Shown here: in pieces, positions 54,710 to 63,639 of the stretch
Layout of the letters: each line of letters starts with the position of its first letter
How positions within the stretch are numbered: position 1 is the first letter of the stretch
Source of the DNA: Rhyzopertha dominica
Lineage: Eukaryota > Arthropoda > Insecta > Coleoptera > Bostrichidae
Reading direction: 5' to 3'
DNA: 64,000 bases
Assembly (NCBI GenBank): GCA_025024175.1
Contig: QCXZ01000138.1
Span: 43,433,092 to 43,497,091, forward strand
Program-made: the position numbers and the translations under genes
The notes under the pieces: model-generated
What the model was told of the DNA's origin: nothing
The model's input: only the letters and a program-made list of their open reading frames with translations
Database searches by the model: none

Positions 54710-54715
54710 GGAGGC
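54710..54715. repeat. 6-bp target site duplication (left) of the Polinton element
   Basis: GGAGGC, repeated exactly at 63634-63639. A 6-bp duplication is the Polinton/Maverick hallmark. Confidence 0.92.
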
Positions 54716-55240
54716 AGTAGTTATACCACTAGGGTATGATGACAATCCAACAACCTGATGGACCGCGCCATCCGGTTCTTACCACACAGTAGGGGGGTAG
54801 GCTGAAGGTCACAAAGAACCCGCCTAAGAAGTGCTGAAGAAGTGTTAACAATGACGTCATCCTACCAGAAGGCAGTCTAAGAACAGACAACAAACACACA
54901 CTAATGATGACGTCACTGCGGATATCAGGTGTAAACACACCTGTTTTTTACCTGTGCTAGAAGCACACCTGTAATTAAATAACCTCTTTGAATGTGTCAA
55001 AAACGTGCTGAAGAAGTGTTAACAATGACATCATCCTACCAGAAGGCAGTCTAAGAACAGACAACAAACACACACTAATGATGACGTCACTGAGAATATC
55101 AGGTGTAAACACACCTGTTTTTACCTTGCTAGCAGCACACCTGTAATTAACTAACTTTTTAATGTGTCAAAAACGTTCACCCATCTTTCAAACAACAACA
55201 ACCGACACCTGTTTTACCTGTGCTAGTGTTCTGTAATTAA
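54716..55240 (+). repeat. Left terminal inverted repeat with internal 174-bp tandem units
   Basis: The outer 115 bp (54716-54830) pairs closely with 63633-63519. It is followed by unit 1 (54831-55004, 174 bp), unit 2 (55005-55174, 170 bp) and a decayed partial third unit to about 55240. Units start GTGCTGAAGAAGTGTTAACA and end ATGTGTCAAAAAC. Full palindromes TGACGTCA lie at 54852-54859, 54908-54915 and 55082-55089, and AGGTGTAAACACACCT words occur once per unit. Confidence 0.92.
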
Positions 55241-56142
55241 TATGAATTTTAAATACTTCCGCGTACGAATGCAGCTTGTAATCTCATTAGCGGAAACCTA
55301 ATTTTAATGCAACCGATAACATTTGATCTTCTTTATCAAACAACTGTGTGTGTGCTTATCTGTTAATACCAAGGCGCGTAAATATTTGTTCCTAATATGC
55401 ATCATGATTGCTACACGTTCTGCAAATTTTTGCAGCAAAATTGTTATAATTGCTATAATTGCACGTTTTTACGAAAATTTATCTCATGTTAGAGTCATCA
55501 CAAGGTGATGAGTTTTTGTATAAAACGGATGAAAACGGATTGATTTTATGTCTTCGAATTATGTGCAAAATGTTTATGATTGTACTGTGAGGTGTTTAAA
55601 TTGTGTAGTGTCTCAAAATGTTTATAAAAATACTTGGTAAGTAGCAATAGGTTTAGAGTTTGCATTTAAATCTGGGATAACCTGAATATGTTTTACGATT
55701 GTCAGCACACATACGGGGTGCTAAATATAGAACAGCAACTAAACTGCGAATTGGGTTCTTTTAAACTAAATAACCAGATACGGAGCTTGCGGTAAGCTCT
55801 TGCACTGAAGATTGTGTAGCTAACACAGTTGTTATGTAGTTTTATGAATTTTACTGCAGCAGACAGTTTACCTGACTGAAACTAATAACAGGTGCTGAAT
55901 CGGAACCGGTTTTTAACGTTTTTAGTTTTAAGATATTGCATGTAAAATGCTTTCAACAAGGCTAGACTGATAGACCTCAAGCAACCAACCGCTTGGAATT
56001 ACTCAGCGTTGTTAGGTTGTGCAGATATTCAGGAGTCATTTTAAGTTATCTTCAACTAACTTAAAAGTATTTGTATATTATCTGAACTCTACTAGGTTTG
56101 TTTGAGGAATAAAATAAAACGAAGGTGTTCAATTAATTTGTT
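55241..56142. other. Polinton interior without a recognisable gene
   Basis: AT-rich, with only a 61-codon plus-strand frame (55323-55508) that lacks motifs. It lies between the left terminal repeat and the last leftward gene. It may hold remains of a lost gene or non-coding end sequence. Confidence 0.4.
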
Positions 56143-56148
56143 TTTATT
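56143..56148 (-). terminator. Poly(A) signal AATAAA after the membrane-protein gene
   Basis: TTTATT on the plus strand gives AATAAA on the minus strand, 15 nt beyond the stop codon at 56163. Confidence 0.6.
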
Positions 56149-56162
56149 GTGTAACATAATGG

Positions 56163-56761
56163 TTACAAAAGGAATTGTTTAATCAATACTGTGTTCCCGG
56201 AATGTTCCGTGCTAGAATTAAGCTGTATTACTAATTCTGAATCACAGTTGGAAATTTCTGTATATTTCTTACCTATTGTTTTCTGCAACAGTTGATCCAT
56301 GCAATACTTTAATATTGATCTCGCTAGATGTGATGTACATATTATTATGCACATGAAAACCATTACAATAAATATACTCATCGAATCGATTTTTAGTAAG
56401 ACTTCTGTGGAGCGAACTAATTCAGCTGCTGCATTAGATATTTGGTTAGTACTTTCGTTTACAATAAATGATTCGTTAACACCATTCTCCACCGACTATC
56501 CCCGTAACTTTTGTTGGGGAACACTAACCTAATTTTATATTGAACAATGCGGTTGTTAATTGTGGGTACATTTGAAATTTTATAAACTGTCAAGGCATCT
56601 TGTGCTAAGGATTTTAGAGGTATCCAGTTAGGTTCAAGCGGATCGTTACCATCGTTGAAACATACATAACTCTTGTCAACGTTCTTAATTCCATGATGCA
56701 AAATGAATGTATTATTTGCTAAAGCAGCAAAAATTAGCAGACTTGTGCTTAGGAACGCCAT
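56163..56761 (-). pseudogene. Polinton orphan: signal peptide plus C-terminal membrane segment, frameshifted
   Basis: An ATG at 56761 starts a clear secretory signal (MAFLSTSLLIFAALA), followed by about 80 residues with NKS and NNT-type sequons. Near 56480 the frame shifts into an overlapping one that continues with NESF and NESTN sequons, a polar helix, and a strongly hydrophobic segment (MSIFIVMVFMCIIICTS), then a ~45-residue polar tail to the stop at 56163. The whole would be a ~198-residue type I membrane glycoprotein. I do not recognise it. It lies in the capsid-gene direction at the end of the block. A virion or host-membrane protein of the element is the natural guess, but a captured host gene is possible. 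Confidence 0.5.
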
Positions 56762-57078
56762 TCTCAACAGAATGAAGTATTAGAGCATGTAAAGGTAGGT
56801 TTTATCAATGAAGCAGCGAAATATGTTTACATCCTCTTATCGTTTATTAGAAAATATATAATATAATTTTAGCTTTTTTTCCTCAGACATTGAAGCTTCT
56901 GCGGAAGTGCGTATTTTGGTATGCTGAGGTGTCAAGCGTGAATATACAACAAAAAGTATCACATTTTTTGTTTATTTTGTGTTCTACTAATTTTCTGTTA
57001 TTTATAAATTATATTTATGTACTAAGTGGTTTTATAAAACTAATACAAATAAAAAATCATATTTTATCTTTAAACATT

Positions 57079-57084
57079 TTTATT
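57079..57084 (-). terminator. Poly(A) signal AATAAA after the major capsid gene
   Basis: Minus-strand AATAAA, 39 nt past the capsid stop codon at 57123. Confidence 0.6.
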
Positions 57085-57122
57085 GTAATAAATAACTAAT
57101 TTTACATTTTTTTTTTGTACAA

Positions 57123-61811: not shown

Positions 61812-61822
61812 TTTATAATCAT

Positions 61823-61922
61823 NNNNNNNNNNNNNNNNNNNNNNNNNNNNNNNNNNNNNNNNNNNNNNNNNNNNNNNNNNNNNNNNNNNNNNNNNNNNNN
61901 NNNNNNNNNNNNNNNNNNNNNN
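61823..61922. other. Assembly gap (100 N)
   Basis: A run of exactly 100 N is the conventional placeholder for a gap of unknown length. It falls between the divergent phospholipase and polymerase genes, where the polymerase 5' part, a terminal-protein region and perhaps integrase or ATPase genes of the element would be expected. Confidence 0.97.
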
Positions 61923-62900
61923 GCTTTTTGATAAAAAAAATTATATTATACATTACAAGAACTTGCAAAAACAGGCCATTGTTTTAGGTTTAAAATTAAT
62001 GAAAATTCATAAGGTGTTGAAATTTAAACCAGACTTGTTGGTTGAAGCCCTACATTGAATTGAATAAAATTTAAGGAAACAAAGTAAAAACGATTTTGAA
62101 AAAAATTTTTATAAACTAATGAATAACAGCGTATTTGGAAAAACCATGGAAAACGTAAGAAAGTATAAAGAAGTTAAATTAGTAAATAGATGGATGGGTC
62201 GTTTGGTGTAGTTATTACATATCACAACCTAACTTTCACAGTTGTAGCATTATTAAAGAAAATTTGGTAATTATAGAATTAAAACGTTTAAAGGTAAACT
62301 TTACAAAACCAATTTATACAGGGTTTGCAATTCTTGATCTATCGAAAATATTTCTGTATGATTTTCATTATCATTACATTAAAAAAACTTTTAAAAGTCA
62401 AGCTAAATTGTTGTATACAGACACCGACTCTTTAATATACCACTTTTTTGTTGATAATGTTTATGAGCATATTAAACAGGATATTGATAAATTTGATACC
62501 TCTGATTACCCTCCTAATAATGTTTATAACATCCCGTTGAAAAATAAAAAAAAAATTGGGTTTAATGAAAGATGAAAATAATGGAAAAATATGACTGAAT
62601 TATTGGCTTGAGATCTAAAATGTATACCTTTAAAACATTGAAAACAACAACAAGGAAACTGTTAAAAAGAAAGCAAAGGGTATAAAGGAAGCTGCATTAA
62701 AAACTATAACATTTGCCGATTATTATGATTGTTTGTTTAATAATAATACACACAACACGACGCAAAAATTGTTTCGTTCCCAGAAACATGAAGTATATAC
62801 AATAAATCAAACTAAAATAGCCTTAAGTCCGCATGATGATAAAAGGTTAATAAGTTATCTATATACGGATACATTGCCTTGGGGATATCACAAAAACTAA
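61923..62900 (+). pseudogene. Protein-primed family B DNA polymerase, C-terminal part
   Basis: The plus-strand remains run from the gap to a TAA at 62900. About 61925-62160 has IIHYKNLQKQAIVLGLKLMK, then NDFEKNFYKLMNNSVFGKTM, the fingers motif B (KxxxNSxYG-like). The frame breaks near 62055 and 62210. 62264-62575 is open with KPIYTGFAILDLSKIFLYDF and LLYTDTDSLIY, motif C with its two catalytic Asp. After further shifts, 62680-62900 reads TFADYYDCLFNN, KHEVYTINQTKIALSPHDDK and TLPWGYHKN, the characteristic C-terminus. This polymerase type starts DNA synthesis from a terminal protein and copies linear genomes with inverted ends. At least four breaks make the gene inactive. Confidence 0.93.
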
Positions 62901-62980
62901 AAAATTATCAAAATCTTCTGTAATTCTAATCAATGTACCATATTTTTGTTTTACTGTATGTGTATATATTGTATGCGTAA

Positions 62981-62986
62981 ATAAAG
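62981..62986 (+). terminator. Poly(A) signal AATAAA after the polymerase gene
   Basis: AATAAA about 80 nt past the polymerase stop, with a second AATAAA-like word at 62990. Confidence 0.6.
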
Positions 62987-63021
62987 CAATAAATAATATT
63001 ATTCTGTGTTTTTTTTTTAAT

Positions 63022-63633
63022 TAATAGGTGACATAGATGTACTTGTGCAGGTAAACACCTGTTTAAAGATGACGAACACATTAAAAAGAGGTTAATTAAT
63101 TACAGATACAGGTGAATTTACACCTCATATCTTCAGCGATGTCATTAGTAGTGTGTGCACACCTGTTTTTTTTTTAATTGTCTTCTGTTATCTTGAAAGA
63201 TGACAACCATTTTTTAACACATTCAAAGAGGTTATTTAATTACAGGTGTGCTTCTAGCACAGGTAAAAAACAGGTGTGTGTTTGTTGTCTGTTCTTAGAC
63301 CGCCTTCTGGTAGGAATGACGTCATTGTTAACACTTCTTCAGCACGTTTTTGACACATTCAAAGAGGTTATTTAATTACAGGTGTGCTTCTAGCACAGGT
63401 AAAAAACAGGTGTGTTTACACCTGATATCTGCAGTGACGTCATCATTAGTGTGTGTTTGTTGTCTGTTCTTAGACAGCCTTCTGGTAGGATGACGTCATT
63501 GTTAACACTTCTTCAGCACTTCTTAGGCGGGTTCTTTGCGACCTTCAGCCTACCCCCCTACTGTGTGGTAAGAACCGGATGGCGCGGTCCATCAGGTTGT
63601 TGGATTGTCATCATACCTAGTGGTATAACTACT
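63022..63633 (-). repeat. Right terminal inverted repeat
   Basis: Mirror of 54716-55240. The outer part (63633-63519) pairs almost base for base with the left end. Two 170-bp units follow inward; the second lacks about 35 bp around its central TGACGTCA. A decayed third unit reaches about 63022. TGACGTCA lies at 63491-63498, 63435-63442 and 63317-63324. Confidence 0.9.
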
Positions 63634-63639
63634 GGAGGC
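63634..63639. repeat. 6-bp target site duplication (right) of the Polinton element
   Basis: GGAGGC, the partner of 54710-54715. Confidence 0.92.

Follow-up and report, generated by a model that had tools for sequence, protein, structure and literature searches.

An apparently young, multi-copy Polinton/adintovirus family in Rhyzopertha dominica and its one-finger GTSF1-like gene

What kind of insertion lies at positions 54716-63633 of a 64,000-nucleotide stretch of the Rhyzopertha dominica genome (the window), where a sequence-only reading had proposed an integrated virus-like genome of the Polinton/adintovirus kind? The ends, the target duplication, a capsid gene, a gene for a PLA2-like protein and the existence of a multi-copy family all support that proposal. 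The inserted Polinton/adintovirus-like element is almost certainly one insertion of a young multi-copy family of ~18 kb belonging to Eupolintoviridae, and the same entity as Bos-associated insect adintovirus 2.

Element ends and target duplication

The hexamer GGAGGC is present, as that reading had it, on both sides of the element (54710-54715 and 63634-63639, read directly from the sequence), and the two copies stand directly outside the ends AGTAGTTATACCAC...GTGGTATAACTACT; both ends read AGTAGTTATACCAC inward. The long inverted termini with AG...CT ends are likewise there: the element runs from AGTAGT to ACTACT, and its terminal inverted repeats agree at 99% over 302 bp and continue in further inner arms. 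Repeat comparison places the right repeat at 63316-63633 (minus strand) and, together with the left-type ends of other copies, the left repeat at 54716-55176 (plus strand), which contains two inner 174-bp tandem units. Inverted repeats with AGT-type ends and a 6-bp duplication are features of Polintons and Eupolintoviridae, and (AGT)2//(ACT)2 ends with 6-bp duplications are also given for vertebrate Mavericks in an excerpt of PMC8097293.

Relation to a known virus and copies in the genome

In searches of nr with queries from copies other than the window's, the kinase TK was 100% identical over 97% of the query to the TK of Bos-associated insect adintovirus 2, and a GTSF1-like frame, described below, matched a hypothetical protein of that virus with 100% identity over 81% of the query. 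Because of the identity in TK, this is not a new kind of virus. NCBI taxonomy lists Bos-associated insect adintovirus 2 (taxid 2609867) as unclassified Eupolintoviridae, which an excerpt of PMC12451622 gives as the 2025 name of Adintoviridae. The comparison with the virus covered these two proteins. Its record comes without a stated host genome, whereas here there are multi-copy insertions with target duplications; a GenBank adintovirus lacking a known host is tied to a recent multi-copy genomic family with clean target duplications, and its natural history is open to study in a real host genome.

A search of the 479-Mb genome with the 302-bp end gave at least 41 full-length matches, including both ends of the window copy. 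The exact 18-bp terminus was found with no mismatch in 39/39 other ends fetched. Sixteen pairs of ends, among them that of the window, share a scaffold at spacings of 1.0 to 23.7 kb, and matching 6-bp flanks were seen in 14/16, with 14 different hexamers; anatomy, duplications and copy number are matters of direct observation. The search for other copies with the same termini, which the sequence-only reading had put forward as a check, has thus been passed. One of the two non-matching pairs has identical inverted flanks (290/290 bases), and the left-flank hexamer of the other recurs at an end on another scaffold.

Some ends show irregular arrangements. At C136:15215636-15239347 (L028, L029) the 290-bp flanks are identical inverted repeats and a second PolB-side flank lies inside, which could represent a flipped isomer, a rearrangement or an assembly artefact. 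In L030/L047 and L027/L044 (with one letter N in the second), left- and right-type ends on different scaffolds share the duplication hexamer; scaffold misjoins or exchanges between near-identical copies are candidate explanations. Pairing ends across scaffolds by their duplications gave three hexamer matches; one of these links two ends of left type and was excluded from the insertions. The end at C1, 25.7 Mb, fits neither of the two types, and the left-right repeat comparison was made without it.

Conserved genes of the window copy

The major capsid protein is encoded in three frames at 57123-58340 (minus strand), two of which match the double jelly-roll family PF21738 in Pfam (E=4.6e-72 and 5.3e-27); the third, N-terminal frame alone gave no Pfam match. 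A PLA2-like protein with a basic tail follows from 60818-61702 (minus strand), where the predicted HDxxY motif reads HDISY and PF08398 matches at E=2.6e-07. A type B DNA polymerase (PolB) is represented by its C-terminal part, which lies in several frames at 61923-62900 (plus strand). The initial ~280 bases can be aligned to PolB in another copy, and the remainder is assigned by motif C and position; the expected motif C is present as YTDTDS in the frame 62186-62575.

Two other proposals fared less evenly. The adenain-like catalytic set stands as far as the residues go, since H/D/Q/C can be picked out by eye within one open frame (59896-60363, minus strand); the profile matches of this frame are marginal and below cut-off (Peptidase_C5 E=0.005, Peptidase_C48 E=0.0052), and a PDB search with it returned no adenain-like protease. 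The capsid half of the claim of penton- and capsid-like motifs is borne out by PF21738, while the candidate penton or minor capsid protein (58513-59082, minus strand) is placed by position only: it has no match in Pfam, PHROGs, NCBIfam or PDB sequences, and its single-sequence fold model has a mean predicted local distance difference test (pLDDT) of 34.3, which is unusable. In sum, the suggested profile check of the translated frames matched capsid and PLA2 in the window, and PolB in another copy.

The middle hidden by the assembly gap

A gap of 100 N interrupts the window copy at 61823-61922. The sequence on its left recurs at nine other places, each another copy and one a partial match, and the distance from there to the right flank is 9,417, 9,415, 9,410, 9,429, 9,413, 8,706, 8,156, 7,909 and 7,354 bp. 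The 9,413-bp copy has two right flanks, 9,413 bp away to the first and 14,886 bp to the second, and the 7,909-bp copy carries a 100-N gap of its own. Adding ~9.4 kb to the visible 8,818 bp gives an estimated full length of ~18.2 kb, and the two paired copies that have ~9.4 kb there and one right flank are 18,247 and 17,889 bp long. The sequence-only reading had called the element compact, at about 9 kb, and lacking integrase and ATPase. This describes the gap and not the family, since the place of the window's 100 N is taken by 7,354-9,429 bp in nine other copies and, for the family, both genes are encoded in the gap-equivalent stretch of other copies.

A Walker A pattern scan of the window and L048/L049 returned TK only, and the packaging ATPase, of A32 type (Pox_A32 2.5e-10), came to light in another copy, in the sequence beyond the gap edge. 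Other copies also encode a retrovirus-like integrase with a chromodomain (rve fragment 2.3e-06, 28.2 bits, below cut-off; Chromo 4.3e-06, above cut-off), a dUTPase (4.4e-16 and 1.9e-14 in two frames of two copies), the P-loop kinase TK and a CHHC-finger protein (3.4e-08). PolB of another copy matches PF03175 at E=1.5e-28, which points to the viral/organellar (protein-primed) type B polymerases. Adintoviruses are defined in an excerpt of PMC11071296 by a PolB with an OTU-like domain, a recognisable hexon and an integrase with a chromodomain.

Several points weigh against reading the window element as one insertion of this family. The N-terminal part of PolB gave no Pfam match over cut-off for an OTU-like domain, the penton of the window copy is unproven, and the protease and rve matches are marginal, below the Pfam cut-offs. 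TK and the GTSF1-like frame were read in other copies, and the presence of the hidden genes in the window copy's own middle is inferred.

The right gap flank (61923-62260) was found at 17 other places at 96-98% identity, 13 of which share the same score, in a search where 40 of 47 candidates were scored. A further 22 weaker places, at 71-82% to the same segment, are other, more distant Polinton-like PolB relatives in the same genome.

Integrity and age of the copies

The gap might hide little, the window copy being itself internally deleted like the copies of 1,013 bp, 2,571 bp and ~6.2 kb that exist in this genome. Four further end pairs 12.0-13.0 kb apart, none of which shows the left gap flank, may also be deleted or gapped. 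Yet four other places match the window's left gap flank at 100% identity, and in the nine other copies that have this flank it always stands 7.35-9.43 kb before the right flank, so that we regard a deletion here as quite improbable.

The state of the reading frames raises the related question of whether the window copy is a decayed fossil whose frame breaks are true mutations, the copy or even the whole family being dead. Its capsid and PolB are indeed spread over several frames, and the capsid frame is also broken in 8 of the 16 other copies that hold the region; in the remaining 8/16 it is one open frame of ~406 amino acids. Against decay, other copies differ from the window by 1-8 substitutions but 4-20 insertions or deletions per 1.45 kb, a pattern typical of the consensus errors that long reads leave in repeats, and the 13 equal scores among the 17 places matching the segment beside the gap suggest that it is the window that deviates from the rest. 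The indel excess points to assembly error, and the frame breaks in the window look like assembly indels. We regard a dead element as unlikely.

The capsid-region comparison drew on 18 fetched copies, of which 16 hold the 1.45-kb region and two were dropped; with the window added, 17 copies (~24.6 kb in total) contain 6 singleton substitutions, and 4 more, all within 98 columns, split the 17 copies 10 to 7. So few private substitutions indicate that the family is young. With an insect rate near 3e-9 per site and generation, the insertions would be of the order of 10^5 generations old at most. Dating by divergence between left and right repeats was rejected because 8/20 other left-type ends are identical to that of the window across 300 bases and the left-right difference within a copy is 1-5 of 300 in all 16 pairs; the differences are older than the copies.

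A one-finger GTSF1-like gene

The CHHC zinc-finger protein resembles GTSF1, a host factor of the PIWI-interacting RNA (piRNA) pathway. Its gene, hidden by the gap in the window, lies at L069:2007-2408 (C136, 65.95 Mb) and at 13 other places. PF05253 has 17 matches in the genome, namely 14 in 13 copies of the element family, two in host genes with two fingers and one elsewhere; the copies that have no match include the window, with its gap, and deleted copies. The finger score is the same in all 14 element places, and the frame has 134 amino acids in 8, 127 in 2 and 68-69 in 4. It comprises one CHHC finger, a Pro/Gln-rich linker and a Glu-Glu-x-Trp-Asp...Tyr-x-Pro stretch. A short upstream exon is likely, because by eye a splice-acceptor-like tract stands just before the finger and no in-frame ATG precedes it. 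The database twin in Bos-associated insect adintovirus 2, called 'hypothetical' there, differs in starting at an internal Met inside the finger, so that the first 13 of 21 finger residues are absent.

Two CHHC zinc fingers characterize GTSF1 and one was found here; by this count the element protein is not a GTSF1 member. It shares with GTSF1/Asterix the CHHC finger and has a candidate counterpart of the acidic-x-Trp-Asp...Tyr-x-Pro tail motif, and it differs in having one finger rather than two and a long Pro/Gln linker. In GTSF1 the C-terminal tail carries conserved aromatic residues for the binding of PIWI or Vreteno. A fold model of the frame reached a pLDDT of ~80 over the finger and 61 overall, from an alignment that included two host pieces and is therefore possibly biased. 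The top Foldseek match, at E 0.12, was GTSF1 in the SIWI-piRNA-GTSF1-Maelstrom complex (9nhc), which fits poorly overall (18.6 Å over 118 columns); mouse GTSF1 (0.7 Å over 28 columns) and U11-48K (1.0 Å over 28) followed, and no match reached E 0.001. The modelled fold is that of a CHHC finger, and on fold alone GTSF1 and U11-48K cannot be told apart.

It is a real possibility that the frame encodes an unrelated protein with a CHHC finger, such as one of the U11-48K or TRM13 type, that takes no part in the piRNA pathway. The Pfam domain is common to U11-48K, the frame has only one finger, the U11-48K fit is near that of mouse GTSF1, and the PDB sequence matches are all weak (GTSF1 6x46 at 0.24, U11-48K at 0.52, GTSF1 9nhb at 6.4). 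Other evidence speaks for a tie to GTSF1. The finger is identical in 11/21 residues, the four metal ligands included, to one host GTSF1-like gene, which itself matches GTSF1 in the PDB at 7.3e-12, and in 7/21 to a second host gene. Neither score was reached by any of 20,000 shuffles (0/20,000), a test that cannot tell the different kinds of CHHC finger apart. The motif behind the linker aligns colinearly with the tail of GTSF1 in 9nhb, at a score that 109/20,000 shuffles reach.

For Bombyx Gtsf1L, an excerpt of PMC10711660 states that the tail Trp is essential for binding Vreteno and that this residue also enhances Ago3 binding. A one-finger GTSF1 with such a tail could serve as a piRNA-pathway decoy. 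We tentatively propose that a captured one-finger GTSF1 may use its tail to bind PIWI or Vreteno while failing to activate slicing, thereby blinding the pathway that would silence the element. If this were true, the decoy would help to explain the recent spread of some twenty nearly identical copies, and this would be a case of a transposon-virus that has taken up, as a weapon, part of the system that keeps it in check. No report of a GTSF1-like gene in an adintovirus, Polinton or other virus was found within the literature library searched.

Proposed life cycle

Replication, particle formation and present mobility we infer by analogy with related elements. PolB would copy linear DNA from the inverted ends, and the rve-chromodomain integrase would join this DNA to a 6-bp staggered cut, which would thereby yield the target duplication. 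Particles would be built by the products of the capsid, protease, ATPase and PLA2-like genes; TK and dUTPase may help the element in non-dividing cells, and the single-finger GTSF1-like gene may act against piRNA silencing.

Comparison with other elements

An excerpt of PMC8097293 gives vertebrate Mavericks, besides their ends and duplications, a capsid, protease, integrase, ATPase and PolB as found here; the present element differs in belonging to an insect lineage and in its extra TK, dUTPase, PLA2-like and GTSF1-like genes, for which no search was made in Mavericks. Drosophila-associated adintoviruses 1 and 2 are listed in part of PMC8363768 with PolB, integrase, capsid, protease and FtsK, and integration is suspected for them; compared by description only, Drosophila-associated adintoviruses 1-3 are contigs of 13.3-14.6 kb versus ~18 kb here. 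Relatives of the capsid numbered 44, many without a name, and all named ones are from insects (beetles, wasps, a sawfly, ants, bees, phylloxera and an aphid). Scans of IMG/VR with the capsid, PolB, ATPase and GTSF1-like proteins confirmed no relative.

Other genes of the element

From right to left, the minus-strand order in the window is PLA2-like protein, phrog_805-like protein, protease, unknown protein, candidate penton, capsid and possible membrane protein. The second of these, a candidate internal virion protein (60320-60721), has a weak match to phage phrog_805 (PHROGs, E=0.0038), and the unknown protein is an open reading frame of 132 amino acids at 59303-59701. At 56163-56779 are two overlapping frames with no Pfam family above cut-off, one with a hydrophobic stretch noted by eye, which may encode a membrane protein. 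In the gap-equivalent stretch, an 'E4-like' match to PF05385 (0.0013, below cut-off) was dropped, as its frame overlaps dUTPase coding (L069:2491-2742 and 2573-2905). L069:65-715 and L068:1041-1613 encode two more proteins of the family with no family match over cut-off; in the latter an acidic stretch, seen by eye, may be a SUMO-binding motif.

Internally deleted copies and target sites

At least three copies are internally deleted, L020 (1,013 bp), L036 (2,571 bp) and one at C53:13.1 Mb (~6.2 kb), with intact ends and target duplications in all three. The joints of the 1,013-bp and 2,571-bp copies share 1-2 bp, and the ~6.2-kb copy has PolB at the place of the capsid gene. These are possible non-autonomous derivatives: they may have been mobilized in trans, or the internal deletions may have arisen once the copies were in place.

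In the 14 same-scaffold duplications 21/42 mirrored positions are complementary (binomial 0.0015), and 4/14 hexamers are perfect palindromes (1.5e-4) against 2.2% of window hexamers; adding the three cross-scaffold hexamers gives 23/51 (0.005) and 4/17 palindromes (3.4e-4). The excess, looked for after seeing the data and in a small sample, hints that the integrase may prefer symmetric sites. Together, the deleted copies and possibly biased insertion sites offer data on how Polinton integrases work.

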